Part shown: piece after piece, positions 14,061-47,467 of the stretch
How the letters are laid out: each line of letters opens with the position of its first letter
Position numbering within the stretch: the first letter of the stretch is position 1
Assembly (NCBI RefSeq): GCF_024298885.1
Contig: NZ_CP101166.1
Location: 868,001 to 932,000 of the forward strand
DNA from: Haloglomus halophilum
Lineage (GTDB): Archaea; Halobacteriota; Halobacteria; Halobacteriales; Haloarculaceae
DNA length: 64,000 nt
Reading direction: 5' to 3'
Made by a program: the position numbers and the translations under genes
Notes under the pieces: model-generated
Told to the model about the DNA's origin: nothing
The model's input: the letters and a program-made list of their open reading frames with translations, nothing else
Database searches by the model: none

Positions 14061-14740
14061 TCGTCACCTACCACCTCGGTAACGACCTCGGTGGCTCTTT
14101 CCCGGGGGTTGGCACTACCCTCACCTAAAGCCTTCCAAACGTTCGAGTCGCGAACCACCCGCCGGACGGCGGTTCGCCGGAGGTCGGGGTCGACCCCGCG
14201 TTCCTGCAGGTCCGCCCGGATGTCACCGGTCAACTCGGCCATCGCGCCGGCGCCCGCGAGTTCCGTCTCCAGCCGCTCGCGGAGGTGCTTCGAGAGTGCC
14301 GGACTGGCCCCGCCGGTCGCGAGGCTCGCGACGACGGGCTCGTCGCGCACCGTCGCCGGGACGACCACCTCATCGACGGGCCGACGGTCGGTCCCCGAGC
14401 GGTCGGCCCGGTTGTAGAGGACGCCTCGCTCGTCGGCCTCGGCAGCGACGGCCGCGTTCAGGTCGGCGTCGTCCGTAGCGGCCACGACCAGCGCCGGCTC
14501 GACGCGGTCGAACCAGTCGGGCACCGCGTCGGGCGTGGGCGCCGCGCGGACGAACTCGACGTGGCCCGTCCCGTCACCGTCGTCCGCCGCCCCGGGCTCG
14601 AACCGGCGGTCCGCGAACCCCGGACTGACGACCACGACCCGCGCCTCGCGGGCGAAGCGACGAGCCTTGCGCGCCCCGACGGGACCGCCCCCGAAGACGA
14701 GGACCGTCTCCCCGCGGAAATCGTGGTGGAGCGGAATCAT
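14057..14740 (-). CDS. sirC: Precorrin-2 dehydrogenase/sirohydrochlorin ferrochelatase
   Basis: A 227-residue protein equivalent to the N-terminal part of siroheme synthase CysG or to Met8/SirC. It oxidises precorrin-2 to sirohydrochlorin with NAD+ and may insert iron. The Rossmann loop GGGPVGARKA (17-26), the segment ALVVAATDDADLNAAV and the LATGGASPALSKHLRERLE helix are typical. It sits between ahbAB and hemA: the ahbAB stop codon is immediately adjacent to its start, and its stop overlaps hemA by 4 bp, so the genes are almost certainly one transcription unit serving the siroheme-dependent haem route. Confidence 0.92.
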   Translation of the reverse strand: MIPLHHDFRGETVLVFGGGPVGARKARRFAREARVVVVSPGFADRRFEPGAADDGDGTGHVEFVRAAPTPDAVPDWFDRVEPALVVAATDDADLNAAVAAEADERGVLYNRADRSGTDRRPVDEVVVPATVRDEPVVASLATGGASPALSKHLRERLETELAGAGAMAELTGDIRADLQERGVDPDLRRTAVRRVVRDSNVWKALGEGSANPRERATEVVTEVVGDE

Positions 14741-15878: not shown

Positions 15879-15903
15879 GTCGCGTTCCCGTCGGTCGTCG
15901 TCA

Positions 15904-16074
15904 CCGCGGACGCCGACGACGCCCCTGTTCAGTCGCCGTCGCCGCGGACGCCGACGACGCCCCTGTTCAGTCGCCGTCGCCGCGGACGCCGACGACGCCC
16001 CTGTTCAGTCGCCGTCGCCGCGGACGCCGACAACGCCCCTGTTCAGTCGCCGTCGCCGCGGACGCCGACAACGC
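15904..16074. repeat. 38-bp tandem repeat array A (4.5 copies)
   Basis: Copies begin at 15904, 15942, 15980 and 16018, with a partial fifth at 16056, all starting CCGCGGACGCCGACRACG. The first three carry GACGACG and the last two GACAACG. There are no spacers. The innermost copy encodes the last residues and stop codon of the DUF5778 gene (stop at 16043-16045), so the array looks like a serial duplication of that gene's 3' end, extending to within about 57 bp of the ahbAB start. The period of 38 is not a multiple of three. Confidence 0.95.
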
Positions 16075-16492: not shown

Positions 16493-16619
16493 AGCGGTCG
16501 ATGTCGGCTGCCGGCCGGGGCGAGGCCGGAAGCGGTCGATGCCGGCTGCCGGCCGGGGCGAGGCCGGAAGCGGTCGATGTCGGCTGCCGGCCGGGGCGAG
16601 GCCGGAAGCGGTCGATGTC
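16493..16619. repeat. 38-bp tandem repeat array B (3.3 copies)
   Basis: Units begin at 16493, 16531, 16569 and a partial at 16607, each AGCGGTCGATGYCGGCTGCC followed by a GGCCGG-rich half. There are no spacers. It shares its 38-bp period with array A but not its sequence. It lies directly upstream of the DUF5778 promoter. Confidence 0.95.
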
Positions 16620-25163: not shown

Positions 25164-26060
25164 ATGAGCGAGCAGGAATCGCTGGCGCTGGAGCGGGTGC
25201 TGCCGCCCGAGGACACGGCCGTCGGCTACCTGCTGCGGCTCTCGCGCCCCCGGTTCTGGCTGTACCTGGCGGGCCCTGTCGTCGTCGGGGTGGCGTACGC
25301 CGCCACGAGCGTCGGTGAGCTGTTCGCCCCGCTCGCGCTGGCGCTGTTCGCGTACTTCCTGCTCCCGGCGAACGTCTTCCTCTACGGCGTCAACGACATC
25401 TTCGACGCGGACATCGACGCCGAGAACCCGAAGAAGGAGGGCCGCGAGGTCCGCTATCGGGGCTCTCGACTCGTCGTGGCGGCGGTGGTGGTGTCGGGGC
25501 TGCTGGGGCTGGCGTTCGTCCCGTTCCTGCCGCTCGCCGCGGTCGGCGTGCTCGCCCTGTTCGGCTTCCTCGCCACGGAGTACTCGGCGCCGCCGCTCCG
25601 CTTCAAGACGACGCCGTTCCTCGATTCGCTCTCGAACGGCCTCTACATCCTCCCCGGCGTCGTGGCGTACACGGCGCTTGCCGGGCAACTGCCCCCACTG
25701 GGCGCCATCGTCGGCGGCTGGCTCTGGACGATGGGGATGCACACGTTCTCCGCGATTCCGGACATCGAACCCGACCGCGCCGCCGGCATCGAGACGACCG
25801 CGACCTACCTCGGGCGGTTCAACACCTTCCTCTACTGCGCGCTGATGTGGCTCCTGGCGGCGGTGGCGTTCGTCTACGTACATCCGTTCTTTACCGTGAT
25901 TCTGATGCTGTACCCGCTGCTCGTGTTCGGCATCACCTTCGCCCGCGTGGACGTGGACGAGGCCTACTGGTGGTATCCCATCATCAACTCGCTCGCCGGG
26001 ATGGTCATCACGATGGGCGGGCTGTACGTGCTGGTCTACGGGAACCCGTTCGTGGGGTGA
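25164..26060 (+). CDS. lyeJ: Lycopene elongase/hydratase, UbiA-type prenyltransferase
   Basis: A 298-residue polytopic UbiA-family protein. The first aspartate motif NDIFDADIDAEN (about 72-83) and second motif DIEPDRAAGIETTATYL (about 199-215) bind Mg2+ and the prenyl diphosphate. LyeJ adds C5 units to lycopene to start bacterioruberin. The gene follows crtD by one base, so they form one operon. The usual third gene, cruF, which hydrates bisanhydrobacterioruberin, is not present downstream; instead there is a convergent small membrane-protein gene. Confidence 0.9.
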   Translation: MSEQESLALERVLPPEDTAVGYLLRLSRPRFWLYLAGPVVVGVAYAATSVGELFAPLALALFAYFLLPANVFLYGVNDIFDADIDAENPKKEGREVRYRGSRLVVAAVVVSGLLGLAFVPFLPLAAVGVLALFGFLATEYSAPPLRFKTTPFLDSLSNGLYILPGVVAYTALAGQLPPLGAIVGGWLWTMGMHTFSAIPDIEPDRAAGIETTATYLGRFNTFLYCALMWLLAAVAFVYVHPFFTVILMLYPLLVFGITFARVDVDEAYWWYPIINSLAGMVITMGGLYVLVYGNPFVG

Positions 26061-26069
26061 CGACGGAAC

Positions 26070-26540
26070 TCAGGCATCCCCGGTGGATGTCCCGGATGCG
26101 CGCCGGACCCGGCCGAGGAGGTAGCCGAGCAGGACAACTACCAGACCGACGCCGAGAGTGAGATGGCCCGGATAGCCGAAACTCGTCATCATGGGTTGCA
26201 GGTCTCCAGCACCAGGTCTCGCGGGCGCGGGGCCACCGTAGACGGTGACGAACGGGGTGCCGAACAGCGCGTAGTACGTCTCCAGGCTCACGAAGCCGAG
26301 GAAGGGTGCCAGTCCGAGGAGTGTCGCCCGGAGTGGGCTACGAGACCGGTAGCCGAAGGACGCTGCGATGCCAGCGCCGATGATGGGGACGATCGCGATA
26401 CTCAGGTACAGGGTGGAGACAGCCCAGAGCCGATGAACGGCGAGCCCTGTCAAGAACAGGAGCGAGGCGGCGACGGCGAGTTGCGTTCCAGACAACTCGC
26501 TCCGGCCAGAGAGCAGTCGCCTCGTCCTCGCCACGTCCAT
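26070..26540 (-). CDS. Membrane protein, function unknown
   Basis: A 156-residue protein with about four hydrophobic helices (residues 20-37, 42-64, 70-92 and 125-143). It contains GYRSRSPLRATLLGLAPF and a Gly/Pro-rich loop before the last helix. No family is recognised. It is convergent with lyeJ, stopping 9 bp from it, in the place where cruF stands in other haloarchaea, but the sequence does not resemble CruF, which is about twice as long. Confidence 0.55.
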   Translation of the reverse strand: MDVARTRRLLSGRSELSGTQLAVAASLLFLTGLAVHRLWAVSTLYLSIAIVPIIGAGIAASFGYRSRSPLRATLLGLAPFLGFVSLETYYALFGTPFVTVYGGPAPARPGAGDLQPMMTSFGYPGHLTLGVGLVVVLLGYLLGRVRRASGTSTGDA

Positions 26541-26641
26541 GCGAGCGCCCAGCGGGCCGCTGCGGATAAGCTTTGTTCGGGGGGAGACGCGATTCGTCGT
26601 TGCAGGGAAGCTGAGTCTCCCGTCGGTTCCGACAACAGGAA

Positions 26642-26902
26642 GCGCGCGAGCGCCACACGGCGGAGGCCGCGAGCGCTAGCGAGCGTGCCGGAGCCACCAC
26701 GGCGCTCGCGCGGGGAGGTGTGGGGGCACCAGCACTCCGCTGGAACCACCACGAGCGTCGCTCGATCCGAAACCAACCCCCTGGCGGACTCGAAGGGCGA
26801 GCGCTCTCGGGGAAGACGGCCGACGCAAGCACCGCAGGCGCCTCCGGCGCCCGAGGAGCGCAGCGAGGCCCTCGACCCGAGAGCGCGAGGGCTTCGTAGT
26901 TG
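26642..26902 (+). repeat. Composite hairpin element E1 (GACGCAAGCACCGCA core)
   Basis: The left part holds a perfect 11-bp inverted repeat (26644-26654 with 26701-26711) and a segment similar to 34985-35085. The right part is a long hairpin: arm CGAAGGGCGAGCGCTCTCGGG (26791-26812) pairs over its inner 11 bp and outer 5 bp with 26876-26896. The loop carries GACGCAAGCACCGCA (26822-26836) and a small perfect hairpin, GGCGCC-TCC-GGCGCC (26837-26851). No protein-like reading frame spans it. Related hairpins occur near 39.6, 40.0 and 47.3 kb. Confidence 0.8.
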
Positions 26903-27033
26903 TTGTCGCTGAAATTGTTGGCAGAGAACACAAAGACTTCGCATGTCCCGAATTAGCGATATATTGGAGATTTTAGAGTAAAATATTCGGCCCAATCGTT
27001 GAATGTCGCTAATTAGCACTTTAATTCCAGTCT
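26903..27033. other. AT-rich tract downstream of rfcL with inverted repeats
   Basis: This 131-bp stretch is strikingly AT-rich for the window. AATTAGCGA (26951-26959) and TCGCTAATT (27006-27014) form a perfect 9-bp inverted repeat 46 bp apart, and GCTAATTAGC (27008-27017) is itself a palindrome. No open reading frame is convincing. It lies directly 3' of rfcL, so transcription termination or a DNA-binding role is possible. Confidence 0.5.
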
Positions 27034-28503
27034 CTACATGAAATCGCCTAGCCCGGACTGCTGGTCGTCGTCCTCGGCGGCCTCCGCGTCGGCCTCGCGG
27101 CCCTCCTCCTCCCCGTCGCCCGAGCCATCGTCACCGCCACCGAGCGTCGCCTGCGCGACTTCCTCGTCTTCGCCGTCGGCATCGTCACCCTCCTCCCCGT
27201 CCATCTCCGACTCCGCCACGCCACCCGCAAAGGCCCCGCCCGAATGCTCCACGGCCTCCTGCTCGCGCAGTTCCTCGGCGTCGGCGACGATGTCCTGCAC
27301 CTTGTTCGTCGACTCGCCGCTGCCCGTGATGAAGGAGACGTGTTCGGCGTCGAGTTCGTAGCGCGCGGCCATCAACACCGTCAATTCGCGATTCTTGCAG
27401 TGGTGGGTCATCACCGCGAGGAACGGCATGATCTCACGCCGAGCGGTCGCCGTCGACACCCCGGCGGACTCGGCGATGCGCTCGGCGATGTAGTCCCGCG
27501 TCGAGTCCCGGTACGACCGGTAGGGCGCGCCGCCGTAGCGCGTCCAGCCGCCGCGGTCGCGGGTCCGGGCGGCCGCGACACCCGCCGCGATGTTGTCGGT
27601 CGCGTAGCGCCAGTACGTGTAGTTCTGCGTCGCACGCACGCGTCCGAGCCAGCGGTCCGCCTTCGCGAGGTAGCCGTACGCGTCGGCCACCTCGTCGCCC
27701 TCGTACACCGTCGGGACCTTGTCCTCGACCCACTGGAGCAGGTCGTCCGGCGTCTCGTCCGTGTCGTAGGCCGTCTGCAGCGCCTCTTCGGGCGACTGCT
27801 CCTTGAGGACGGCGTCCAGCAGCGAGAAGATGTCCTGCGTGCGGTCGCGGTCGCCCGTCGACACGTCGTCGACGGTGATGCGGTCCCGGCCCTCGGCGGC
27901 GGCCTGGAGGTCCTTGATGGCGCCGCGCAGGTCGCCGTCGTTGGTGCTCGCGATGCGGTCCAGCGCGGCGTCCTCGTACTGGATGTCCTCCTTCCGGCAG
28001 ATGTCGCGCAGCACCGGCAGGATGGAGCGTTTGCCCACGTCCCTGAACTCGATGTCCTTGCAGGCGTTCCGGAGGCCACGCGACATCTCGTAGAAGTCGT
28101 TGGCGATGAGGACGACCGGCTGGTTGGCCTCCTTCACGAGGTCGGTCATCGCGCCGGCGCCGCCGCGGTCCTTGTGCTGGTGGAGGTTGTCCGCCTCGTC
28201 GAGGATGACGAGCTGGCGCCCCGTCGAGGTGAGCGACTGGTTCATCGCGGCGCCCCCGGCCACCTTCTTGATCTTGTCGGCGGTCCGCGAGTCGCTGGCG
28301 TTGAGCTCCATCACCGACCAGCCCATGTCGTTCGCGAGCGCGTGCGCGGCGCTGGTCTTGCCGATCCCCGGCGCGCCGTAGATGATGACCGCCTCGCCGT
28401 GGTCGTCCCACGACCGGGCCCACTCGTGGAGCTTGTCCCGGGCCTTGTCGTTGCCCCGGACCTCCGACAGCGTCGTGGGCCGGTACTTCTCCGTCCAATC
28501 CAT
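27034..28503 (-). CDS. rfcL: Replication factor C large subunit
   Basis: A 489-residue AAA+ clamp-loader large subunit, which with RfcS loads PCNA at primer ends. It has MDWTEKYRPTTLSEVRGN at the N-terminus, Walker A GAPGIGKT (43-50), Walker B ILDEAD (100-105), and the SNDGDLRGAI-type sensor region near 190. The tail (about 405-489) is a long acidic, low-complexity stretch ending QSGLGDFM, which fits a PCNA-interacting QxxLxxF peptide. The length is normal for haloarchaeal RfcL. It appears monocistronic, with repeats and an AT-rich tract downstream. Confidence 0.95.
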   Translation of the reverse strand: MDWTEKYRPTTLSEVRGNDKARDKLHEWARSWDDHGEAVIIYGAPGIGKTSAAHALANDMGWSVMELNASDSRTADKIKKVAGGAAMNQSLTSTGRQLVILDEADNLHQHKDRGGAGAMTDLVKEANQPVVLIANDFYEMSRGLRNACKDIEFRDVGKRSILPVLRDICRKEDIQYEDAALDRIASTNDGDLRGAIKDLQAAAEGRDRITVDDVSTGDRDRTQDIFSLLDAVLKEQSPEEALQTAYDTDETPDDLLQWVEDKVPTVYEGDEVADAYGYLAKADRWLGRVRATQNYTYWRYATDNIAAGVAAARTRDRGGWTRYGGAPYRSYRDSTRDYIAERIAESAGVSTATARREIMPFLAVMTHHCKNRELTVLMAARYELDAEHVSFITGSGESTNKVQDIVADAEELREQEAVEHSGGAFAGGVAESEMDGEEGDDADGEDEEVAQATLGGGDDGSGDGEEEGREADAEAAEDDDQQSGLGDFM

Positions 28504-28782
28504 TTAGCGGAGGCAGGTGGGGGGCGGGGTTAGTGGTTGCGGAGGGACGGTCCGACGAACCGAATGACCGGCGCACGAGGGACTCCCGCCCCCGCGGCAT
28601 AAGATACCACGACACTTGCGTCCACTTCAGCGAACTATTGCGCCAACCTCCGGCACCAACTAACCCAATCAATTGACGAGCGTCGAGTGATTTCGACACT
28701 ACTAGAGCAATACCCAACTGAACGGTTCTCACGGAGGGAGCGAATGAAAGGTACTATGGTCGCGTTATATGTATACGAACGT
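28504..28782. other. Intergenic promoter region between rfcL and the ABC operon
   Basis: This 279-bp divergent spacer holds both promoters. It contains an AT-rich block (28690-28780) with TTATATGTAT at 28765-28774 and a GGAGGG Shine-Dalgarno-like sequence at 28733-28738, 6 nt before an in-frame ATG at 28744. No further gene is visible. Confidence 0.5.
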
Positions 28783-29646
28783 ATGCCAACTGACCGCGGA
28801 ACCGACCGTCGTTCGTACCTCAAAGCCCTCGCTGCCGGGAGCGTCGTCACGCTCGCTGGGTGTACCAACACCGGCGATGGCGGCGGGGACGGCGGCGACG
28901 GCGGTGATGGTGGGGACGGTGGGGACGGTGGGGACGACAGCACGCCGACGGACGAGCCGGCACCGCAGATCGTCGCCGGCACCGCGCCCGGCTTCCCGCC
29001 GTTCGAGATCAAGCAGGACGGCGAGCTGACCGGCTTCGACGTGGAGCTGTTCGAGGCCATCGTCGAGGAGAGCGAGTACGAGTTCGGCGGCTGGAAGGAG
29101 TTCGAGTTCGACGCGCTCATCCCGTCGCTCCGGGACGACAAGATCGACGCCATCGCCGCGGCGATGACCATCACGGACAAGCGCGACAACGCCATCGACT
29201 TCTCGGACCCGTACTACAGCGCCGACCAGTCCGTCATCGTGCGCGAGGGCGGCGATTTCAGCCCGTCCTCGCTGGACGACCTCTCGGGCCACCCCATCGG
29301 CGCCCAGAAGGGGACCACCGGCGAGAGCGTCATCCAGGAGCAGCTCATCCAGGAGAACAAGCTGGAGGAGTCCAACTACAACGCCTACGACAACTACACG
29401 CTCGCGGTGCAGGACCTCGAGAACGGCAACATCGACGCCATCGTGCTGGACCAGCCGGTCGGCGCGACGTTCGCCGACCAGCGGGCCGTCGTCGTCTCGT
29501 TCGTCTACGAGACGGGCGAGCGCTACGGCTTCGGCGTCCGCGAGGGCGACAGCGACCGCCAGCAGGCCATCAACCAGGGACTCCAGGCCGTCCGCGACAA
29601 CGGCACCTACGAGGAGCTCCGCAACGAGTGGTTCGGCTCGAACTGA
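28783..29646 (+). CDS. ABC transporter substrate-binding lipoprotein (amino-acid type)
   Basis: A 287-residue family 3 solute-binding protein. It has a Tat lipoprotein signal: DRRSYLKALAAGSVVTLAGC, with twin arginines and lipobox, then a Gly/Asp-rich linker. The mature domain contains GFPPFEIKQDGELTGFDVEL and IAAAMTITDKRDNAIDFSDPYY, the hallmarks of polar amino-acid binders. It delivers substrate to the permeases encoded by the next genes. An upstream ATG at 28744 with a good Shine-Dalgarno sequence is a serious alternative start and would give a longer n-region. Confidence 0.9.
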   Translation: MPTDRGTDRRSYLKALAAGSVVTLAGCTNTGDGGGDGGDGGDGGDGGDGGDDSTPTDEPAPQIVAGTAPGFPPFEIKQDGELTGFDVELFEAIVEESEYEFGGWKEFEFDALIPSLRDDKIDAIAAAMTITDKRDNAIDFSDPYYSADQSVIVREGGDFSPSSLDDLSGHPIGAQKGTTGESVIQEQLIQENKLEESNYNAYDNYTLAVQDLENGNIDAIVLDQPVGATFADQRAVVVSFVYETGERYGFGVREGDSDRQQAINQGLQAVRDNGTYEELRNEWFGSN

Positions 29647-29650
29647 ACCG

Positions 29651-30394
29651 ATGAGCCCCGCGCTCGCGCCGGACGTGGTGCTCGCGGCGGCCGCCGGCAA
29701 TGTCGACCCCGGGGTGGTGCTCCAGGCCGGTGACTGGGAGTTCGTCTACCGGAACCGCCGGTTCCTGCTGTACGGCGCCGGCGTCACCGTCCTGCTGACA
29801 CTGACGAGCGTCGTCCTCGGCCTGCTGGCGGGGCTCCCCGCCGGCATCGTCGAGGTGTACGGCTCCGGCCCCGTCGCGGCAGCGGTGAACCGCGCGGGCG
29901 TCCTGCTCCGGGGGACACCCCTCCTGGTCATCCTGGCGTTCACGTTCTTCGTCAACCCCATCAACGTCGGCGCGTTCGAGGCCGCGACGCTCGGACTGGG
30001 GCTCCGGAGCGCGGCCTACCAGTCACAGATCTTCCGTGGCGCCATCCAGAGCGTCGGCGAGGGACAGATGGAGGCCGCCCGCTCGGTCGGGATGAGCCAG
30101 TTCGAGGCCATCCGGCACGTCGTCGTGCCGCAGGCGCTCCGGCGCTCGATTCCGGGGTTCCAGAACGAGTTCACCATCGTCCTGAAGGACACCAGCGTCG
30201 CCTTCTTCATCGGCCTCGCGGAGCTGCTGACCCGGGGGTTCAACCTGTTCACCCAGCCCGGCCAGTCCACCTCCGTGCTGGAGGTCATCCTCGCGGTCTC
30301 GGCGGTCTACTTCGTCCTGACCGTCCTCACCAACCAGGGGCTGGAACTGCTGGGGCGGCGCTTCGCCATCCCCGGCACGGGGGGTGAACGATGA
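29651..30394 (+). CDS. Amino-acid-type ABC transporter permease 1
   Basis: A 247-residue inner permease of the HisM/GlnP class with about five helices. The EAA-type cytoplasmic loop, GQMEAARSVGMSQFEAIRHV followed by VVPQALRRSIPG (about 137-168), couples to the ATPase. It follows the binding-protein gene by 4 bp, and its stop overlaps the ATPase start (ATGA), so the operon is tightly coupled. Substrate is inferred to be an amino acid from the family of the binding protein. Confidence 0.88.
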   Translation: MSPALAPDVVLAAAAGNVDPGVVLQAGDWEFVYRNRRFLLYGAGVTVLLTLTSVVLGLLAGLPAGIVEVYGSGPVAAAVNRAGVLLRGTPLLVILAFTFFVNPINVGAFEAATLGLGLRSAAYQSQIFRGAIQSVGEGQMEAARSVGMSQFEAIRHVVVPQALRRSIPGFQNEFTIVLKDTSVAFFIGLAELLTRGFNLFTQPGQSTSVLEVILAVSAVYFVLTVLTNQGLELLGRRFAIPGTGGER

Positions 30395-31155
30395 GCGACG
30401 CGAACGCGCTCCTCGAGTTCGAGGACGTCCACCAGTCCTACGGCGAGGAGAAGGTGCTCCGCGGCATCGACTTCGAGATGGAGCGTGGCGACGTGGAGGT
30501 CGTCATCGGGCCCTCCGGCTCGGGGAAGTCGACGATGCTGCGCTGCGTGAACCGTCTCACCGAGATCGACTCGGGCACCATCTACCTCGATGGCGACCCC
30601 GTCACGACCCCCGAGACCGACGTGAACGCGCTCCGGCGGCGGGTCGGGATGGTGTTCCAGGACTTCAACCTGTTCGCCCACCGGACCGCGCTCGGCAACG
30701 TCACCCTCGGGCTCCGGGAGGTGCTGGGCCACTCGAAGGAGGAGGCCCGTGCCGAGGCGATGTCGCAACTGGAACGCGTCGGCCTCGCGAACCAGGCCGA
30801 CTCCTACCCGGCCGAGCTCTCGGGCGGGCAGAAACAGCGCGTCGGCATCGCCCGTGCGCTGGCGATGGACCCCGAGCTGATGCTGTTCGACGAGCCCACG
30901 AGCGCACTCGACCCCGAACTCATCGGCGAGGTGCTGCGCGTGATGCGCGACCTCGCCGACGACGGGATGACGATGCTGTGTGTCACCCACGAGATGGGGT
31001 TCGCACAGGAGGCGGCCTCGACCATCTCCTTCCTCGACGAGGGGAGCGTCGTCGAGCGTGGGCCGCCCGAGCAGCTGTTCGAGGCGCCCGAACACGAGCG
31101 GACGGGTGAGTTCCTCGAGCGACTGACCAGCCTCCACGGAGGCCAGCACGGATGA
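30391..31155 (+). CDS. Amino-acid-type ABC transporter ATP-binding protein
   Basis: A 254-residue ATPase of the GlnQ/HisP class. Walker A GPSGSGKST is at 40-48, the Q-loop FQDFNLFAH near 89-97, the signature LSGGQKQRVGIARAL at 143-157 and Walker B LMLFDEPTSALD at 163-174. It powers import by the two permeases around it. Start and stop both overlap neighbours by 4 bp (ATGA), so the subunits are translationally coupled. Confidence 0.94.
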   Translation: MSDANALLEFEDVHQSYGEEKVLRGIDFEMERGDVEVVIGPSGSGKSTMLRCVNRLTEIDSGTIYLDGDPVTTPETDVNALRRRVGMVFQDFNLFAHRTALGNVTLGLREVLGHSKEEARAEAMSQLERVGLANQADSYPAELSGGQKQRVGIARALAMDPELMLFDEPTSALDPELIGEVLRVMRDLADDGMTMLCVTHEMGFAQEAASTISFLDEGSVVERGPPEQLFEAPEHERTGEFLERLTSLHGGQHG

Positions 31156-32144
31156 GCGCCGAGACCGCCGACGAGCCGGGGGGTTCCGCGACCACTCGCG
31201 GCACCGTCGGCGTCGAACTCGGCCGGCGGCCGCTGTTCTACGCGGTGCTGGGTCCGTTCTGGGCGTGGCTCGTCGTCCGGTGGGTGTACGACTGGGTGGT
31301 CGTCCCGGGGACGAACGTGACCTCTCGGGAGACGTTCTTCCCGACGCAGCCGTTCGTGTCGGCGGGCGAGGTGCTCCGGGAGACGGCCGCGCCGGCCCCC
31401 CTCGCGGGCCTGCTCGACTGGTTCGCCGGCGGACTGGACTTCATCGCCTTCGGTATCGAGGCGCTCCCGCAGCTGGCGGCGGGCGCCTGGGTCACCATCG
31501 TCCTCACCGTCGTCTCCATCCTGGCGGGGCTGGTGCTGGCGGTGCCGCTGAGCGTCGCCCGGGTCTACGGCAACCGGGTGACCCGGTACCCCGCGCTCGC
31601 AGCGACGGAACTCATCCGCGGGACGCCGCTGCTCGCGCAGCTGTTCGTCCTCTACTTCGGGCTGGGACTCACCCAGTACGTCCGCGTGATTCCCGGCGTC
31701 GGCGTGGGCGTCCTCCCCGACACGGCGGTGATGGTGGCGCTCATCGGCTTCACCATCAACTCGGCGGCCTACCAGTCCGAGTACATCCGGTCGGCGCTGC
31801 TCTCGGTCGACTCGGGCCAGCTGACGGCCGGGCGCGCCATCGGCCTCTCGAAGGTCGAGGCCATCCGCCACGTCGTCCTGCCCCAGGGGCTTCGATTCGC
31901 CATCCCTGGCTGGTCGAACGAACTGGTCTACCTCATCAAGTACTCCTCGCTGGCCTCGTTCATCACGGTCCGGGAGCTGTTCTTCCGGGCCGAAGCCATC
32001 GGCAACGACACCTACCTGTACGTCCAGATCTACACCGTCGCCGCGCTGTTCTACATCGCGCTGGTCGTCTCGGCGTCGGCGTTCATGAGCTACGTCGAGG
32101 ACCGCGTCGCCATCCCCGGACTGGGTACCAAGGGCCGCCGGTAG
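31152..32144 (+). CDS. Amino-acid-type ABC transporter permease 2
   Basis: A 330-residue permease, longer than permease 1. An N-terminal hydrophobic segment and an extended outer loop (about 45-85) precede the five-helix core. The EAA loop reads GQLTAGRAIGLSKVEAIRHV followed by VLPQGLRFAIPGW (about 218-250). With permease 1 it probably forms the heterodimeric channel. It is the last gene of the four-gene importer, overlapping the ATPase by 4 bp. Confidence 0.87.
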   Translation: MSAETADEPGGSATTRGTVGVELGRRPLFYAVLGPFWAWLVVRWVYDWVVVPGTNVTSRETFFPTQPFVSAGEVLRETAAPAPLAGLLDWFAGGLDFIAFGIEALPQLAAGAWVTIVLTVVSILAGLVLAVPLSVARVYGNRVTRYPALAATELIRGTPLLAQLFVLYFGLGLTQYVRVIPGVGVGVLPDTAVMVALIGFTINSAAYQSEYIRSALLSVDSGQLTAGRAIGLSKVEAIRHVVLPQGLRFAIPGWSNELVYLIKYSSLASFITVRELFFRAEAIGNDTYLYVQIYTVAALFYIALVVSASAFMSYVEDRVAIPGLGTKGRR

Positions 32145-32201
32145 GTCGCGGCCACCACACCCGCCGAAACCGCTTTGCCCACCGCGGCCCGCCCTCCGGG
32201 C

Positions 32202-33017
32202 GTGCCATCGACGGTCGTCCACGTCGCCTTCGGACTCCTCGTCGCGGCAGCCGTGCTCGGGCCCTACTTCGACCGCCGGGCCCTGCTCGCGGTCGCCGCC
32301 GCCGTCGTCTTCGTCGACCTGGACACCGTCACGAGTCTCGTCCTCGAATCGACCCACCGCGCACTCTTCCACACGGTCCTCCTCCCGCTGTTCGCCGCGA
32401 CCTACCTGTACGCGGAGACGCGCCTGGGCGAGCGCTCGCTGGTCCGCGAGCGGTACGGGGACCGTGGGGTCCGGGTGGCGTGGGCGGCCATCGCCGCCGT
32501 CGTCGTCTCGGGCATCGGCCTCGACCTCACCAACCCCGCCGGGGTGAACATCCTCTACCCGCTCCACGACCAGTTCTACGCGTTCGACGGCGCCGCCAAC
32601 TACTCCACCCGGGCCGGCTTCCAGCAGTCGTTCGTCGAGGTCGGGACCGCGACACCGGAGCCGAGCGGCGGTGGCGGCGGCGGCGGTGCTCGCGTCGACG
32701 TGGGCGGGCAGGGGTCGACCCGCGACTACCACGTCGGGAGCGGCATCGACCCCGACAAGGGCCGCGAGCCGAAGGACGTCCGTCGGGTCTTCCCGGTCGT
32801 CTTCCGGGGCTGGCAGCTCCTGCTCGTCGTCGCGAGCGTCGTCGGCCTGACAATCCGCGCCCGGCTCTCGCCCGAGGTGGCGATGGCCGAGACGACGCCC
32901 GTCCCCGCCGAGACGGACGGCGACGCCGAGCCCGCGGTCCGCCGGGTCGACGACGCGAGCGACGACACGGACCCGGATTCCACCGATTCGCCCGGCGACG
33001 AGGGGGATGTAGCGTGA
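32202..33017 (+). CDS. Membrane-bound metal-dependent hydrolase-like protein
   Basis: A 271-residue membrane protein beginning VPSTVVHVAFGLLVAAAVLG (GTG start). VDLDTV near 45, ESTHRALFHTVLLPL and LYPLHDQFYAFDG fit the YdjM-type membrane metal-dependent hydrolase-like family: conserved Asp and His residues lie at helix ends. The enzyme's reaction is unknown. A Gly-rich extracellular stretch and an acidic tail follow. A paralogue in opposite orientation lies at 34190-34933. The GTG is favoured because the paralogue begins MPPTVVH and a CTTTG element lies 27 nt upstream. The GNAT gene overlaps its stop by 4 bp. Confidence 0.72.
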   Translation: MPSTVVHVAFGLLVAAAVLGPYFDRRALLAVAAAVVFVDLDTVTSLVLESTHRALFHTVLLPLFAATYLYAETRLGERSLVRERYGDRGVRVAWAAIAAVVVSGIGLDLTNPAGVNILYPLHDQFYAFDGAANYSTRAGFQQSFVEVGTATPEPSGGGGGGGARVDVGGQGSTRDYHVGSGIDPDKGREPKDVRRVFPVVFRGWQLLLVVASVVGLTIRARLSPEVAMAETTPVPAETDGDAEPAVRRVDDASDDTDPDSTDSPGDEGDVA

Positions 33018-33544
33018 CCAGTCCCACCGCGGACCCGAACCCGACGGTCCGACCGTACCACCCGGACCGCGATACCGAGGCGCTGTGGGCCGGCAAGCGC
33101 GTGTTCGAACTGGGGCTCGGCGAGGCCGGCGACACGGAGAAGGAGGCCGCGTACGCCGAGAAACTGACCGAGGGATACAGGGAACGGTGGCTCGCCTGGG
33201 TCCGGCGCTGTGCGACTGACGACCCGGGTTGTGTGCTGGTCGCGGTCCCGGAGCGCGAGGTCGCAGACGGGCCGCCGCTCGCGGGCTACGCGTTCCTGCT
33301 CCCCGAACGGCTCGCGTTCGTCTGGGACGCCGCCGTCCTGAACGAGCTGTGGGTCGCCCCGCGCAACCGGGGAACGGGGCTCGCGGACGAGCTGTTCGAG
33401 GGGGTGCTGTCGCACGCCCGCGAGCAGACCCTGCCGCTGGACCGGCTCCTGCTGGATGTCGACACGGAAAACGAGCGGGCCCGCGCCTTCTACGAGCGCC
33501 ACGGCTTCACCGGATGGGGCGAACTCGTGGCGCGTGACCTCTGA
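33014..33544 (+). CDS. GNAT family N-acetyltransferase
   Basis: A 176-residue GNAT enzyme (GTG start, overlapping the previous stop as GTGA). The acetyl-CoA site is LNELWVAPRNRGTGLADELF (about 109-128), and the C-terminal DTENERARAFYERHGF (about 149-164) is the typical final strand-helix. It transfers an acetyl group from acetyl-CoA to an amine; the acceptor is unknown. The tight coupling to the membrane hydrolase-like gene suggests shared expression and not necessarily shared pathway. Confidence 0.85.
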   Translation: MTSPTADPNPTVRPYHPDRDTEALWAGKRVFELGLGEAGDTEKEAAYAEKLTEGYRERWLAWVRRCATDDPGCVLVAVPEREVADGPPLAGYAFLLPERLAFVWDAAVLNELWVAPRNRGTGLADELFEGVLSHAREQTLPLDRLLLDVDTENERARAFYERHGFTGWGELVARDL

Positions 33545-33581
33545 GCCGGGCGGGAGCGAGCGCACGCGTGGCCGTCGGCCG

Positions 33582-34115
33582 TCAGTCGGTGACCGTCGCG
33601 ATGAGGCCACCGACGGTGCCGAACACGAGGGGGTAGACCAGCCCCGCGAGGAGGATGCCCGTCGCGAACACCGGCCCGGTTCCCTGTGCCGGGAACAGGA
33701 ACAGTCCGACGAGGACGAGCGCGAGGTAGCCGAGCACGACGCCAGCGGCGCCCGTCAGCGCCTCGACCGGTTCGTCGATATCGCCGTACTGTCCAACGGC
33801 GAGGCCAGCCGCGATGAGGACCAGCGGCGGGATGGCGTAGAGGAGGGTGGTGAACCCGTCGTCGCCGCCGATGAAGCTCCCGGTGCCGCTCCCGAAGAAG
33901 CCCAGGTCGATCATCGTCTCGACGAAGTGGGCGTTGAAGAACACCCAGCCGACGGCCTTCCACGTCGGGATGTCGGTCGCCTGACGGAGGATGTTGTCGC
34001 GGATGCTGCCGGAGGTGATGATGAAGACGAGGGCGTAGCCGACCAGTTCCGCGGCGGCACCGGCGGCGGCGCCGACCGCAAGCGGGATCTCCCTGTTGCC
34101 GACTGAGACTGACAT
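33582..34115 (-). CDS. Membrane protein, function unknown
   Basis: A 177-residue protein with about five hydrophobic helices (residues 12-33, 42-60 weakly amphipathic, 80-100, 118-140 and 146-172). It starts MSVSVGNREIPLAVGAAAG. I do not recognise an enzymatic motif. It lies between the paired hydrolase-like genes, on the strand of the second copy, 74 bp from its stop, so the two might share a transcript. Confidence 0.55.
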   Translation of the reverse strand: MSVSVGNREIPLAVGAAAGAAAELVGYALVFIITSGSIRDNILRQATDIPTWKAVGWVFFNAHFVETMIDLGFFGSGTGSFIGGDDGFTTLLYAIPPLVLIAAGLAVGQYGDIDEPVEALTGAAGVVLGYLALVLVGLFLFPAQGTGPVFATGILLAGLVYPLVFGTVGGLIATVTD

Positions 34116-34189
34116 TCCGTTCGGCCGAACACGGGGCCGCCGAAAGTAGTTTCCGGCCGGGGGGTCCCGGGAACCAGCCACACGCGACC

Positions 34190-34933
34190 TCAGTCATCCG
34201 TCGAGACGGGGTCGGACGCCGAGCCGCCCGCAGCCTCGCTCCCCGCGCCGTCAGCCGACGACGCGGTGGTCCGGCTGGCCGCGTCGGAATGGGCGGCGAG
34301 CCAGCCGACGAGCGGCGCCGCGGCGAGCACGAGCAGTTGCCAGCCCGACTCGACGATATCGACGATACGCTCGGAGTTCCCGTTCGGCCCGCGAACCGGG
34401 TTGAGTGGCGAGGGGATGAAGAACTCGGCCGTCCCGCCCTGCTGCCCGACGTAGACGGCGTACCCCTCCGTCCCGAACTGGACGTACGACTGGGCGAACA
34501 GCTCCTGATTGGAGAACACGATGCTCCCGACGAACGCGTAGAACTGGTCGTGGAGCGGCCAGAACGGGTTGGCGGTTGCGACGTTCAGCAGGTCGAGACC
34601 GATGCCGGCGACGGCGTAGACGGCGACCGCGACCCACGCCAGCCGCACGCCGGCGGCGCCGAGGTGGTCGACCACGCGCCGGTCCCGCCGCGCGTCGGCG
34701 TAGAGGACGGCCGCCGCGAGGCCCGGGATGAAGAGCGTGTGCAGGACGGCCCCGTGGGTGCTCTCGGGAACGGGGAGGCCGCCGGGCACCGCGAGCAACC
34801 CGAAGAGGGCGTCGAGGTCCGGCGCAGCACCGGCCGCTCCCGCGACGACGGCGGCCCGTCGGTCGAACGCGGCGCCGAGGGCTGCCGCGGCCAGGATGAC
34901 CCCGAGCGCCGCGTGGACGACCGTCGGTGGCAT
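34190..34933 (-). CDS. Membrane-bound metal-dependent hydrolase-like protein (paralogue)
   Basis: A 247-residue membrane protein starting MPPTVVHAALGVILAAAALG. It shares with the 32202 gene the order TVVH, APDLDALFG, ESTHGAVLHTLFIPGL and FWPLHDQFYAFVGSI, followed by a variable extracellular part and a C-terminal helix. The conserved Asp/His set suggests the same YdjM-like fold. Inverted orientation and shared neighbours point to a local duplication. The function is unknown. Confidence 0.72.
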   Translation of the reverse strand: MPPTVVHAALGVILAAAALGAAFDRRAAVVAGAAGAAPDLDALFGLLAVPGGLPVPESTHGAVLHTLFIPGLAAAVLYADARRDRRVVDHLGAAGVRLAWVAVAVYAVAGIGLDLLNVATANPFWPLHDQFYAFVGSIVFSNQELFAQSYVQFGTEGYAVYVGQQGGTAEFFIPSPLNPVRGPNGNSERIVDIVESGWQLLVLAAAPLVGWLAAHSDAASRTTASSADGAGSEAAGGSASDPVSTDD

Positions 34934-34984
34934 GGGTCGGCCTGGGGCGTGTGCGAGTATGAACGTTCTGCCGGTGGATCTGCG

Positions 34985-35085
34985 GGACGATTGTTCGGTT
35001 CCGGGAACAGGGAGCGCACGGAGGGGTGGGGGCGCGAGCGCTCCGCGGGAACCACCACGCACGTCGCTCGGCCGAACGACAGGCA
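34985..35085. repeat. Partial copy of the left part of element E1
   Basis: Between two divergent genes, this segment matches E1 without its internal 60-bp inverted-repeat block: GTTCCG-n-AACAGG-n-AGCGC and then GGTGGGGGC-n-CTCCGC-n-GGAACCACCACG and CGTCGCTCG. It lacks the GACGYAAGCACCGCA hairpin. It lies upstream of serB and may overlap promoter sequence. Confidence 0.6.
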
Positions 35086-35133
35086 ACTCCAACGCGGGGG
35101 ATTCAAGCCCGAACCCGGCGAACGACCGCGCAG

Positions 35134-35766
35134 ATGCTCATCGCGTTCGACTTCGACGGGACGCTCAGCGACTCCGAGATGACCGTGCTACTGGGGGGCG
35201 AGCAGGGCGTGGCCGAGGAGATGGCCGACATCACCGAGCGGGCGATGAACGACGAGATGTCCTACGCCGAGAGCCTGCGCTCGCGGGCGGAACTGCTGCG
35301 GGGGCTGAAGGAGAAGAAGGCCGACCGCGCGTTCGGCCGGGTGGAACTGCGCCCGGGGGCCGCCGAGGTCATCGACGCGCTCCGTGACGCCGGCCACACG
35401 GTCGCCATCCTCACCGGCGGGTTCGAGCGCGGCGTCGCCCGCGCACTGGACGACGCCGGCACGGACGTGGACACGGTGGTCGCCAACCGGCTCCCCATCC
35501 GGAACGGCAAGCTGACCGGCGACGTCGAGGGACCACTCATCGAGGGGACCAAGGACGAGGCGCTGGAGGACCTCGCCGCCGAGGTCGACGTGGCGATGGC
35601 CGACACGGTCGCCGTCGGTGACGGCGCGAACGACCTGCCGATGCTGGAGGTGGCGGGCCTCGCCGTGGGCTACGAGCCCAAGCCGGCCGTCGAACCCCAC
35701 TGCGACGTGGTCGTCGAGTCGATGGCCGAGCTACAGGAGCTGCTGACCGAGCGCGACATCCTCTGA
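35134..35766 (+). CDS. serB: Phosphoserine phosphatase-type HAD hydrolase
   Basis: A 210-residue HAD-superfamily phosphatase of the SerB class, the last step of serine synthesis. The nucleophile and acid-base aspartates are D6 and D8 in FDFDGTLSDSE; the second motif is ILTGG, and the metal-binding third motif is VGDGANDLPML near 169-179. The ATG at 35134 places the motif at the expected position near the N-terminus; upstream in-frame ATGs would run through the repeat element. A small membrane gene follows after 80 bp. Confidence 0.88.
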   Translation: MLIAFDFDGTLSDSEMTVLLGGEQGVAEEMADITERAMNDEMSYAESLRSRAELLRGLKEKKADRAFGRVELRPGAAEVIDALRDAGHTVAILTGGFERGVARALDDAGTDVDTVVANRLPIRNGKLTGDVEGPLIEGTKDEALEDLAAEVDVAMADTVAVGDGANDLPMLEVAGLAVGYEPKPAVEPHCDVVVESMAELQELLTERDIL

Positions 35767-35846
35767 GGCGGTCCGGTCGGTGGCCGACCGGCGCGTCAGA
35801 CGCACGTCGTACGAGGGTTGACGGCCGCTGCCACCCAGTATCGGGT

Positions 35847-36119
35847 ATGGCATTCGGCATCGGACTGTTGCTTCGCGGCCTCCGGTGGGGCCCCCGGCGA
35901 CTGGCGCTGTGGGCCGGGGCCAACCCGCTCCGGACGGCTGGGGGGGTCGGCGCGCTGGTCGCGGCCTGGGTCATCGTCGCCTCGCTCTCGCCCGGGACCG
36001 GCGTGATGCCGGACCTGGCCGGCGTCACGCTCGAACGGTTCCTGCAGTTCTCGCGAGCCCACCCGGCGTATCCGGTCGCGGTCGTCGTGGGGAGCGCGAC
36101 GCTGCTGCTGTTGCGGTGA
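35847..36119 (+). CDS. Small membrane protein, function unknown
   Basis: A 90-residue protein with two hydrophobic segments (about 32-47 and 75-90) and a basic N-terminal stretch (LRGLRWGPRRLALW). The C-terminus ends in a Val/Leu helix. It has no recognised motif. It lies between serB and the coiled-coil gene, all on the plus strand with short gaps, so it may share transcription with either. Confidence 0.5.
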   Translation: MAFGIGLLLRGLRWGPRRLALWAGANPLRTAGGVGALVAAWVIVASLSPGTGVMPDLAGVTLERFLQFSRAHPAYPVAVVVGSATLLLLR

Positions 36120-36160
36120 GTCCCCGGAACTGACTTTCCGCTGCCCACCCGAAGGGGCGC

Positions 36161-36667
36161 ATGGACCAATCCGACCCGCCGGACGTGGCGGCGTTCGTCG
36201 AGTACTGTCGGACCCAGGCCGCACTCTGCTCCGGGCGCGTCCAGCAGCTGGGGGAGGAGGCCGACGAACTACTGGACGAGGTCGACGACGAGCTGGCGGC
36301 GCTTCGCGGTGACCTCGACGACGCGACCGAGGGTATCGTGACCCCGCCCTCGACGACCGAGCCCGAGCGACCCGAGGCGGGCGGCGACGAGGCCGGAGCA
36401 GCCGCGGACGCCGCCGAGTCGGCCGTATCGACCGTCGAGCACAAGCAGACGCTGGTCGAGGCGAAACAGGCCCGGATGAACGCGTTCAACGACCTCGCCG
36501 GTGGCTACGCCGACCTCGCAGCGGAACTGGACGATGTCGAGGACGGCGGCGAGGCCCTGGAGCGCGTGGTCGCGTTCGAGGTCGAACGGGACGCCCCCGC
36601 GTACTTCCCGGACCGCGAGACGCTGGCCGAGACGGTCGCCGAGGGCGAGCGCGACGGCGGGAGCTGA
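36161..36667 (+). CDS. Acidic coiled-coil protein, function unknown
   Basis: A 168-residue, very acidic protein rich in Asp, Glu and Ala. Heptad-like segments at about residues 22-52 and 82-130 suggest coiled coils around an Ala/Pro/Gly-rich hinge (about 60-80). It contains no membrane helix, cysteine cluster or catalytic motif. It is convergent with metX, ending 6 bp from its stop. The coding call rests on codon pattern and length; the role is unknown. Confidence 0.55.
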   Translation: MDQSDPPDVAAFVEYCRTQAALCSGRVQQLGEEADELLDEVDDELAALRGDLDDATEGIVTPPSTTEPERPEAGGDEAGAAADAAESAVSTVEHKQTLVEAKQARMNAFNDLAGGYADLAAELDDVEDGGEALERVVAFEVERDAPAYFPDRETLAETVAEGERDGGS

Positions 36668-36673
36668 GCCGCC

Positions 36674-37900
36674 TCAGTCCGAGAACAGGCTCGTATGGAC
36701 GGGCGCGAACTCGCTCTCACGCTCCTCGTCGTCGCGGGTGTCCGTGACGGACTTGCCGCGAACGCCGTCGGCGAGGAAGTCCGCGAGCGGCGGCCCCACA
36801 CGGTCCGGTTCGACGAGGAAGGCGTCGTGGCCGTGGTCGCTCTCGATGACGTGGTGGGCAGTGCGTGCGCCCGCAGTCCGGAACGCGTCGGCCAGCTCCT
36901 CGCCCTGCTCGACGGTGAAGTGCCAGTCGCCGGTGAAGGAGACGACCATCGCCTCCCCGTCGAACGCGGCGAGCGCGTCGGCGTCGGACTCGTAGCCCGA
37001 CGCCAGGTCGTAGTTGTCCATCGCCCGCGAGAGGTAGAGATACGAGTTCGGGTCGAACCGCTCGGCGAACTTCTCGCCCTGGTAGTCGAGGTACGACTCC
37101 ACGTCCCGGTAGGGGAAGAAGTCGGCCGCGGGGTCGACCGGGAAGGTGTCGCGGGCGGCGTCCCTGGAGGCCGAGCGCCGGCCGAACTTGTCGCTCATCG
37201 ACGATTTGGAGAGGTAGGTGACGTGGCCGATCTGCCGGGCGATAGCGAGGCCGTTCTCCGGGCGCGGCCCCTCGCCGTAGTAGTCGCCGCCCTGCCACGC
37301 CGGGTCCGAGGTGATGGCACGGCGGGCGATGCCGTCGAGCGCGACGATCTGCGGGTCGAGACGAGCAGCCGTCGCCACGGGGATGACGCGGTCGACGTGG
37401 TCGGGGTGGCGCTTCGCCCAGTCCAGCGCGTTCATGCCGCCGACCGAACCGCCGACGACGGCGTGCAGGTTGGGGACGCCGATGTGGTCGAGCAGGCGGC
37501 GCTGCGCGCGGGTCCAGTCCCCGACCGTGACCGGTGGGAACCGTGTGCCCCAGTGCTCGCCGTCCTCGTCCAGCGATTCGGGGCCCGACGAGCCGTAGCA
37601 GGAGCCCGGGACGTTGACGCAGACGACGTAGTAGGAGGTGGTGTCGATGGCCTTCCCGGCGCCGACGATGTCGTCCCACCAGGCCCGTGCCTGGCCGGCC
37701 GTGTCTGGGCCACCGCTCCGGCGGCGCCGTCCCGCGACATGGGCGCTCCCGGTGAGCGCGTGACAGACGAGGACGGCGTTGTCACCGGTGAACTCCCCGT
37801 ACGCCTCGTACGAGAGTTCGAGGTCCGGGATGGACTCGCCGCACTCGAAGGTGAACTCGCCGACGGAGACGGTGTCGGCCTCGTGCGGGACGCCCTCCAT
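36674..37900 (-). CDS. metX: Homoserine O-acetyltransferase
   Basis: A 408-residue alpha/beta-hydrolase transferase that acetylates homoserine with acetyl-CoA for methionine synthesis. The nucleophile S152 lies in [14 protein letters not shown]; the other triad members are in the C-terminal region, with the histidine in [11 protein letters not shown]. The ATG at 37900 was chosen over a GTG at 37909 because GGAGGTGA (minus strand 37906-37913) stands 5 nt before it, a strong Shine-Dalgarno sequence. It directly follows metY (1-nt gap), so the pair makes homocysteine from homoserine. Confidence 0.92.
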
Positions 37901-37901
37901 C

Positions 37902-39254: not shown

Positions 39255-39390
39255 GTGTGTCGTGCATATATCTCTAGAAATCTATAACCCACAGTTACGG
39301 CAATATTTGCTAGGCGGAGAGGGCTCGGGGATTTGGAGGGTGGTTATCGATGGCGGTAGCAGGACGGCAACGAAGATAGCTACGGAGACG

Positions 39391-39556
39391 CCTCCGAAGC
39401 CCTCGCGCTCTCACACGGCGACACCGACGACACAACCGCCTCCGAAGCCCTCGCGCTCTCACACGGCGACACCGACGACACAACCGCCTCCGAAGCCCTC
39501 GCGCTCTCACACGGCGACACCGACGACACAACCGCCTCCGAAGCCCTCGCGCTCTC
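39391..39556. repeat. 48-bp tandem repeat fused to hairpin element E2
   Basis: Three full units (starting 39391, 39439 and 39487) and a 22-bp fourth (39535) begin CCTCCGAAGCCCTCGCGCTC. That segment is the outer arm of E2's hairpin, so the array appears to have grown by repeated copying of the element's edge plus ACACGGCGACACCGACGACA. There are no spacers, hence it is not CRISPR. Confidence 0.92.
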
Positions 39557-39662
39557 GACCACTCCGGGCCTCGCTGCGCTCCTCGCTCCGGTCGCTGCGC
39601 TCCCTTCGCTCCGGTGCTTACGTCGGCCGGGAGGGTTCGAGAGCGCTCGCCCTTCGAGTCCG
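39541..39662 (-). repeat. Hairpin element E2 (GACGTAAGCACCG core, reverse orientation)
   Basis: Read on the minus strand, arm GACTCGAAGGGCGAGCGCTC and its continuation (39635-39662) pairs with 39541-39561; the loop carries CCGACGTAAGCACCG (about 39614-39628). It matches element E1 in both arms and core while the stem bases differ, with pairing kept. Upstream (minus strand) it also shares ACACATTCT-n-GTCCTGG with the flank of E4. Confidence 0.8.
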
Positions 39663-39949
39663 CCAGGACGTAGAATGTGTCACTGAGCGGCGCCCCTGCC
39701 CTTCCCCGGGTCGCGCGGGTTCGGCCCATCCGGGCCTCACCACGCGCTCCCGGCCCGTGGACTGGAGCGGTCGCACACCGCCGTCAGTCGAGGTGGCGCG
39801 CGCTGGCGGCTGTGCCGCAGGCCAGCCGCCTCTATCGCGTGCGAGGGCTGAGCATCGCAGGCCGAGCGGAGCGAGGCCGAGAAGCGCAAGCGGTTGGGGA
39901 GGCCCGAGGCTCACGGTGGTCGATTGACTGACCTGCGGCCCTCGGTGGA

Positions 39950-40067
39950 ATCGAAGGGCGAACGCGCTCCGGGTCAACTGACGACGCAAGCACCGCAGGG
40001 AGGGAGCGAAGCGACCGACCGAGCGCGCAGCGAGTCAGGGGCCCGGAGCGCGTGAGGGCTTCGTAGT
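39950..40067 (+). repeat. Hairpin element E3 (GACGCAAGCACCGCA core)
   Basis: Arm ATCGAAGGGCGAACGCGCTC with CGGG (39951-39974) pairs with CCCGGAGCGCGTGAGGGCTT (40043-40062) over an inner 12 bp and outer 5 bp. The loop has GACGCAAGCACCGCAGGGAG (about 39981-40000). The inner stem ACGCGCTCCGGG replaces the GCGCTCTCGGG of E1 with matching changes on the other arm. Confidence 0.8.
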
Positions 40068-40173
40068 CGCCTCTGCCAGCAGACTCTCTGAGAATATAGC
40101 CACTACAACAGAACTCCCCGCCATTCAAAGTACCAAACCCGCCAGAAGCAGACGAAAACTCCGGTTCTACACC

Positions 40174-47155: not shown

Positions 47156-47467
47156 CGGCCGCGCTTGGACGTGTGGCCGGGTAAAGGGGTCGGTCTGGAG
47201 TCGTACACGCCGTGGTTTCGGGTCGGGGTCGGCTCGCTACGCGCTCTGCTCGGGTGGGACTGAAAGGGCCCGGCAGTTCGACCCGTCCCGGACGACGTAA
47301 GCACCGCAACGAGGCCCGGACGGTCGAACTGCCGGGGGCTTTCTACCCGCTCCCGTCGGTCGCTGCCGGCGCCGTCCAGTTGTCGAAAGTCCCACCCGGA
47401 CAGAATGTGTGGCGAGCCGATGCGGACTCGAAACCACAGTGAGTCCCTTCGAAACCGACAGACCTGC
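47156..47467. other. Intergenic region between the DUF5815 and LeuA/CimA genes
   Basis: The 312-bp gap is almost entirely filled by repeat element E4 (47212-47437). The remaining 56 bp on the left carry the DUF5815 promoter region (a GTAAAGGGG stretch). I see no other gene. Confidence 0.55.
47212..47437 (+). repeat. Hairpin element E4 with terminal inverted repeats
   Basis: Outer arms 47212-47260 and 47387-47437 are inverted repeats: GTGGTTTCG-n-GTC-n-TCGGCTCGC at one end and its complement at the other, meeting in CGGGTGGGACT. Inside them lies a second hairpin: GAAAGGGCCCGGCAGTTCGA (with CCCGTCC, 47262-47288) pairs with 47318-47343, and the loop has GACGTAAGCACCGCAACGAG (from 47294). The nested inverted repeats resemble a miniature mobile element. 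It has no target-site duplication that I can see. Confidence 0.8.

Follow-up and report, generated by a model that had tools for sequence, protein, structure and literature searches.

The hairpins and their setting in the window

Within the window, the whole stretch of 64,000 nucleotides analysed here, four hairpins are present where the original prediction had placed them, and the exact core GACGYAAGCACCG occurs four times, every time inside one of them; with two mismatches allowed, 11 occurrences stand against a mean of 6.5, which is near chance. Comparison of positions 25501-45400 with three genomes of the same genus gave 154, 128 and 76 matches, with numerous dispersed ones among them; in the matches listed, ends lie at 26624-26899, 39535-39765 and 39777-40066. 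The hairpins, which had been taken for units in their own right, are real, but each forms the 3' part of a larger repeat with these limits (39535-39765 being reversed), and the second and third - previously counted as separate - make up one head-to-head element (Table 1). The shortened hairpin of element 3 lacks most of its GAGGAGCGCAGC strand; an orthologous copy is found in genome G001, and none at the aligned site in G002.

Table 1. Parts of the elements in the window. R1 is a covariance model trained on 44 sequences, the four window hairpins among them.
Feature	Position	Strand	Basis
Element 1, 5' structured domain type A (stem GCGCGAGCGCC/GGCGCTCGCGC, then GGGGAGGTGTGGGG)	26624..26790	+	boundary from dispersed matches; alignment A3 and consensus fold
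Element 1, terminal hairpin	26786..26895	+	R1, 98.2 bits; training copy of alignment A1
Tandem repeat of hairpin 3' arm and tail, 3.5 units of 48 bp	39389..39556	-	TRF score 336; arm identity
Element 2 left half, terminal hairpin	39540..39661	-	R1, 93.3 bits
Element 2 left half, 5' domain type B (GGCCGGGAGCGCGTGG...GACCCGGGGAAGGGCAGGG)	39657..39765	-	alignment A4; repeat boundary
Element 2 right half, 5' domain type C (GGCGCGCGCTGGCGGC...GGTTGGGGAGGCCCGAGG)	39777..39946	+	dispersed matches to query 14277-14566; similar domain at same locus in G003
Element 2 right half, terminal hairpin	39947..40062	+	R1, 98.3 bits
Element 3, terminal hairpin only, shortened	47257..47342	+	R1, 69.5 bits

As to neighbours, a LeuA-like gene (47468-49054, minus strand) ends 125 bp from the third element, and a leuA-Halobacteria RNA (RF03001, 67.1 bits; 49043-49095, minus strand) adjoins its start. 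An ORF of 156 aa (26070-26540, minus strand), membrane-protein-like by eye and without a Pfam match, sits in a stretch that has no counterpart at the aligned G002 site. At two neighbouring sites (window 28922-29257 and G002 942061-942429), one genome has a domain-sized stretch of a putative solute-binding-protein gene (judged by eye) that the other lacks where the two align, and the difference runs in opposite senses at the two sites. Minisatellites with 38-bp units and 97% matches lie at 15894-16074 (4.8 copies) and 16493-16619 (3.3 copies).

A conserved internal loop on a covarying helix

The four window hairpins are one family, in which a conserved asymmetric internal loop caps a long helix whose arms vary in sequence but remain complementary. 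Folding and alignment of copies place 5'-GACGYAAGCACCGCA-3' opposite 5'-GAGGAGCGCAGCGAG-3', with short core stacks (CGY/GCG, GC/GC, CC/GG) separated by unpaired purines, and the GAGGAGCGCAGCGAG strand is about as conserved as the GACGYAAGCACCGCA strand. What had been described as a conserved loop is therefore conserved indeed, but as one strand of the internal loop and not as an apical loop; the apical stem-loop itself varies among copies. The hairpin foot reads GAAG/CTTC or GAAAG/CTTTC and is followed by a purine-rich internal loop, above which come an 11-pair helix (variable in sequence save for one invariant U-A pair), a mismatched stretch and, before the core, a short second helix. In the copy alignment the internal loops carry invariant bases. 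Hairpin length is 86-122 nt in the window and 102-122 nt in 48 extracted copies, with complementary arms, and GTAG follows 3' of many type B hairpins and not of type A hairpins, where the flank varies (by eye).

Among 44 copies, 15 of 26 pairs have changed on both sides, 96.7% of paired cells are complementary versus 81.5 after shuffling, and 165 cells are two-sided versus 47. The covariation score reaches 0.407 versus 0.127 for shuffled alignments (sd 0.009), none of 500 shuffles scoring as high, and it falls to 0.035-0.060 when partners are slid by 1-3 columns; since related copies are not independent, these figures are not to be read as probabilities. Covariation far above both controls agrees with the selected structure that had been proposed from the four copies alone. 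Its explanation by compensatory change needs amending, however, as part of the difference between copies lies not in point-by-point change but in replacement of a whole inner hairpin (locus 998317, which carries a different inner hairpin within the same outer stem than its orthologue). The refuting conditions set for the proposal do not hold, as covariation is present, matches are many and recent identical duplication does not account for the majority of copies.

Other structured modules were also seen within the hairpins of L041, L042, L061, L058 and L066 (for example GTGAGCG..GCGAAC and AGTCGCAGCCC..GAGCAGGAACGTCT), and a module GCCCGGAACGGC..GCCGCAGGCCCGGAC lies in L046, with a close form in L068. 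Repeats are thus nested within each other.

The larger element and its head-to-head pairs

A half-element measures ~275 bp in the window's genus and ~340 bp in Halorubrum; in the former, each half has a structured domain on its 5' side, which may be of type A, B or C, and the terminal hairpin at its 3' end. Covariation is seen in the type A stem, where both partners differ in 11 of 37 predicted pairs, and is weaker in the type B domain (3 of 19). The window's genome (G000) holds 44 exact occurrences of GACGYAAGCACCGCA and none of the reversed pattern, and these 44 motifs include seven head-to-head pairs with the hairpins pointing outward, no other order being seen within 700 bp. Likewise, multi-hairpin loci were '-+' in 18 cases and '+-' in one (109 loci). 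Loci outside the window's genus are mostly single, with seven '-+' loci whose linker measures 33-60 nt in five and 130 nt in one, the matches overlapping in the seventh.

Tandem repeats of the hairpin 3' arm and tail, as next to element 2, are found at other loci too (such as L193, L126 and L287). Arm spacing is a multiple of three in 57 of 59 Halorubrum-type cases, in 16 of 18 cases of type B and in 8 of 14 of type A from the window's genus, and hairpin lengths are distributed 79, 65 and 55 over the remainders modulo 3. No frame is open in all 46 Halorubrum-type tail units (37 at best) and phase entropy is equal in the three positions (0.67, 0.65, 0.63; n=31). Two antisense frames are open in 12 of 12 units of the window genus's type, which says little in GC-rich DNA. 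Despite the spacing in multiples of three, a protein-coding tail is not supported by these figures.

One strand folds better than the other

In 101 model-aligned copies, mostly from other genera, G.T outnumbers A.C on the motif strand by 88 to 23 cells, although 31 of the 88 come from a single column and the alignment was fitted to the model; an earlier test with 54 copies had given 37 versus 19. Of the two strands, the one with the motif gives the more stable fold in 89 of 101 and in 33 of 44 hairpin copies as well as in 29 of 32 type B domains, yet in only 11 of 22 type A domains. Since single-stranded DNA tolerates G.T pairs as RNA does, the excess argues for one folded strand and not for RNA as such. 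Of the two forms put forward originally, RNA hairpin or DNA cruciform, it is the cruciform that is weakened by these asymmetries.

Genomic context

Within the window the hairpins do lie 3' of one gene and 5' of the next, as first noted, but no fixed gene orientation emerges over 109 loci, which were built from 33 of 35 and 95 of 101 R1 matches (short, cut-off and weak rows dropped). Just one of the 109 overlaps a predicted ORF. Where the flanking genes run in the same direction, 19 single hairpins are in sense and 18 in antisense orientation, and convergent gaps hold 25 hairpins versus 13 in divergent ones; 15 of the loci are without a gene on one or both sides, those of the window's genus include orthologues, and the genes were called with a home-made caller that missed at least the ORF at 26070-26540 (minus strand). 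Owing to this miss, locus 26786 was wrongly typed as convergent, its setting looking like two minus-strand genes.

Clustering of 179 flanking proteins (92 loci) yielded 17 clusters with more than one member. Clusters common to both flanks are orthologous loci of one genus, one-flank matches link L157 with L173 and L170 with L194, and across genera none of the neighbour families is shared by more than two of these 92 loci. With neither orientation bias nor recurrent neighbours, roles as leader, terminator or operon-bound element are unlikely, and a gene-linked cis-element was rejected as a candidate.

Distribution among haloarchaea

The expectation that relatives would turn up in other haloarchaea is borne out across the class: R1 matches (E 1e-4 or better) occur in 167 of 194 haloarchaeal genomes and 58 of 66 genera. 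In a phylum-wide draw of 196 Halobacteriota, they were found in 30 of 33 haloarchaea and in none of 163 other genomes, 146 of these 163 being placed by inferred kinship. Genome-wide R1 counts are lower bounds under strict filters, with at most 19 matches scored per genome, so that a zero may hide weak copies, and range within genera from 0 to at least 19 (g39 and g2) or from 0 to 14 (g4). A GACGYAAGCACCGCA pattern search detected at least one copy in 18 of 39 genomes, and among the 80 genome loci listed, the strict pattern hit haloarchaeal records only. It had 0 matches in IMG/VR viral contigs, which speaks against a viral origin, albeit weakly given the strictness of the pattern. Among 72,556 plasmid records, a 461-bp element query matched a single one, and weakly; at least one copy does lie on a plasmid (Halobaculum, L203).

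Rfam (release 15) returned nothing at gathering score in the window apart from the leuA-Halobacteria RNA, and in five element loci just two matches far below gathering score (mir-1247 and PhotoRC-I, E up to 5). In those parts of the literature on haloarchaeal repeats, REP, MITE, PATE and structured RNA that were accessible, we found no description of the hairpin sequence; the motif string came up in one unrelated cancer paper only, and the sole relevant paper found on such haloarchaeal repeats was PMC3119063.

Probable gain, replacement and decay of copies

Two 340-bp units of G191 are 96% identical and lie at unrelated sites. At one of these, the element is present in G191 and its relative G043, while nine other Halorubrum genomes (examined out of 38 with a match) have neither the core motif nor an R1 match above 13 bits, and shorter sequence joins the flanking genes. 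On the simplest reading of these alignments, the ends of which are not base-exact, the element was probably gained here by insertion. G385 is rearranged at the same site and may hold part of the element. By eye, there is no target duplication at the two G191 sites, again with ends that are not base-exact, and the 340-bp unit has no evident inverted ends; a MITE would be expected to have a target duplication and the terminal inverted repeats of a resident transposon. No base-exact empty site was recovered, element ends being blurred by intergenic divergence.

Copies in the window's genus are old, since many are common to several species at the same locus, and we found no clean empty site there; sites hold remnants or other sequence. 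Orthologous elements are up to 99.1% alike (1209586-1210133), and one half has diverged or is missing at the orthologous loci 1114119 and 894822. At 1165418 of G000 and in the G003 counterpart of the window locus at 39541, the core is missing and the two sides of the stem foot close directly on each other.

Discussion

To our minds there is an even chance that these hairpins terminate a haloarchaeal mobile repeat, non-coding and non-autonomous, that is recognised through its structure, much like REP/BIME or PATE/SMR. Each half would join a structured 5' domain to a long 3' hairpin with conserved purine-rich internal loops, and the GACGYAAGCACCGCA-bearing strand would fold singly, be it as DNA or RNA. 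A trans-acting factor would then recognise this fold by its shape and internal loops rather than by stem sequence and insert copies between genes, in which case the fold would be the substrate of mobilisation. Old copies would decay by deletion and swap modules with each other. In favour of this reading are the covariation, the strand asymmetry, the spread through the class, the intergenic placement, the near-identical units at unrelated sites, presence versus absence at one locus, the uneven R1 counts within genera, and the module replacement and core losses described above. Several points count against such a repeat: the mobilising enzyme was not found and no insertion is base-exact, copies in the window's genus are old and shared, and those of Halorubrum carry a TATA-like box (see below). 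Moreover, a host function would likewise be compatible with class-wide persistence and a strong fold, and gene conversion among older copies could have produced the near-identical units.

By its mode of working, the element may be compared with the REP/BIME and PATE/SMR systems. REP/BIME with their RAYT (TnpA-REP) are intergenic, multicopy imperfect palindromes of bacteria, which are recognised on one strand, occur in inverted pairs with genus-specific variants, have a conserved tetranucleotide at the hairpin foot and leave no target duplication. The haloarchaeal element is likewise intergenic, multicopy, imperfectly palindromic with genus-specific variants, and found in inverted pairs. It differs in that the window hairpin alone is 86-122 nt long, has large conserved asymmetric internal loops and is accompanied by extra 5' domains, in its class-wide spread and in lacking the hallmark of a cognate Y1 enzyme, as four of 12 element-rich genomes (G043, G025, G061, G158) have no Y1 transposase (PF01797); for G025, not even a first-look candidate was seen.

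The main rival, which we regard as rather doubtful, sees a family of small structured RNA genes, in which every copy has its own promoter, the fold works as RNA (a protein scaffold or regulator) and dispersal is secondary. The strand asymmetry, the conserved internal loops with their invariant bases, the class-wide presence and a placement independent of gene orientation all favour RNA genes. So does a TATA-like box that precedes the 5' domain by 14-30 nt (mostly 17-25) in 29 of the 41 Halorubrum-type copies, out of 45, that offered a 5'-domain anchor for the scan, a raw count without background rate. As the box is found even next to genes whose end faces it, it seems to be part of the element, and its nearly fixed place in these sequences suggests transcription. 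Archaeal transcripts usually start ~25 nt downstream of a TATA box, though, and with this spacing transcription would begin inside the first stem; hence the box does not prove that the copies are RNA genes. Beyond the hairpin, 24 of the 41 copies have a second TATAA at 25-75 nt on the 3' side, 17 of them at 34 (again a raw count without background rate), and between the cores of 13 head-to-head pairs in the window's genus there is no TATA-like box. Both findings tell against RNA genes, as do the uneven R1 counts within genera and the loss or gutting of copies between sister species. HEARO and other high-copy structured RNAs are likewise structured and present in many copies per genome, but no Rfam family, HEARO included, reaches threshold on the elements, which rejects a known RNA family, and we saw no linked ORF.

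It is improbable, in our view, that the elements are remnants of IS605/IS1341 transposons (PATE) or SMR-A elements moved by a Y1 (HUH) transposase. As far as the accessible part of PMC3119063 describes them, PATE of Haloquadratum are non-coding, have palindromes near their ends and no detected target duplication, and match IS605-type transposons at their ends; SMR-A of the same organism are ~110 bp long with complementary ends, target and lie inside the palindromes of IS605/PATE, are homogeneous (commonly >95% identity) and have no known mode of mobilisation. The haloarchaeal origin, the non-coding nature, near-terminal palindromes and hairpins nested in palindromes fit that account of PATE and SMR-A, as do the length and complementary arms of the window hairpins; a target duplication was not seen by eye here, with ends that are not base-exact. 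Two hairpins have a TnpB gene no more than 300 bp away (L339 of G061, and G058 C1 2608493 beside TnpB 2607997). Unlike PATE as portrayed there, however, the element is not tied to IS605 ends: R1 matched in just one of 66 TnpB/Y1 loci (the best-scoring ones, 213 kb; a raw count without chance expectation). Unlike SMR-A (HqIRS42/43/55) as described there, its copies diverge and are class-wide. R1 has no match in 46 kb of the Haloquadratum plasmid PL47 either, a small sample.

The lack of Y1 in the four element-rich genomes named above weighs against this origin as well; TnpB is absent from one of the 12 (G158), and a reverse transcriptase (PF00078) from all 12, with the control search being positive in 3 of 14. 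These gaps and the one in 66 loci disfavour present-day mobilisation by RAYT, IS605 or a retro-mechanism, and IS605 or RAYT origin and a SINE-like retroelement were both rejected, but past mobilisation by such means may have occurred.

Equally small is the chance we give to a cis-acting host DNA or RNA element, which would serve as insulator, bidirectional terminator or nucleoid/topoisomerase site. Functions of this kind have been proposed for some bacterial BIMEs. The intergenic, paired arrangement of the haloarchaeal copies, their near absence from plasmid records (with one query) and the location of all 44 exact G000 motifs on the main contig (94% of the genome) would suit such a role. It is at odds with the inconstant relation to gene orientation and the favouring of one strand, and further with the want of any model match in some close relatives of rich genomes and with the Halobaculum plasmid copy.

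Returning to the mobile repeat, we put forward, tentatively and as less than probable, a class-wide haloarchaeal mobile element that is defined by single-strand structure instead of sequence and spread by neither Y1 (HUH) transposase nor reverse transcriptase, and whose hairpin modules are swapped or popped out with pairing kept. Rich genomes carry dozens of copies (as judged by the 44 exact core motifs in the window's genome), and these are absent from Rfam. If mobile, they imply that archaea have a hitherto unknown machinery for mobilisation that recognises structure; if RNA, they are a new class-wide structured RNA, whose relation of structure to function could be studied on dozens of variants occurring naturally in each genome.
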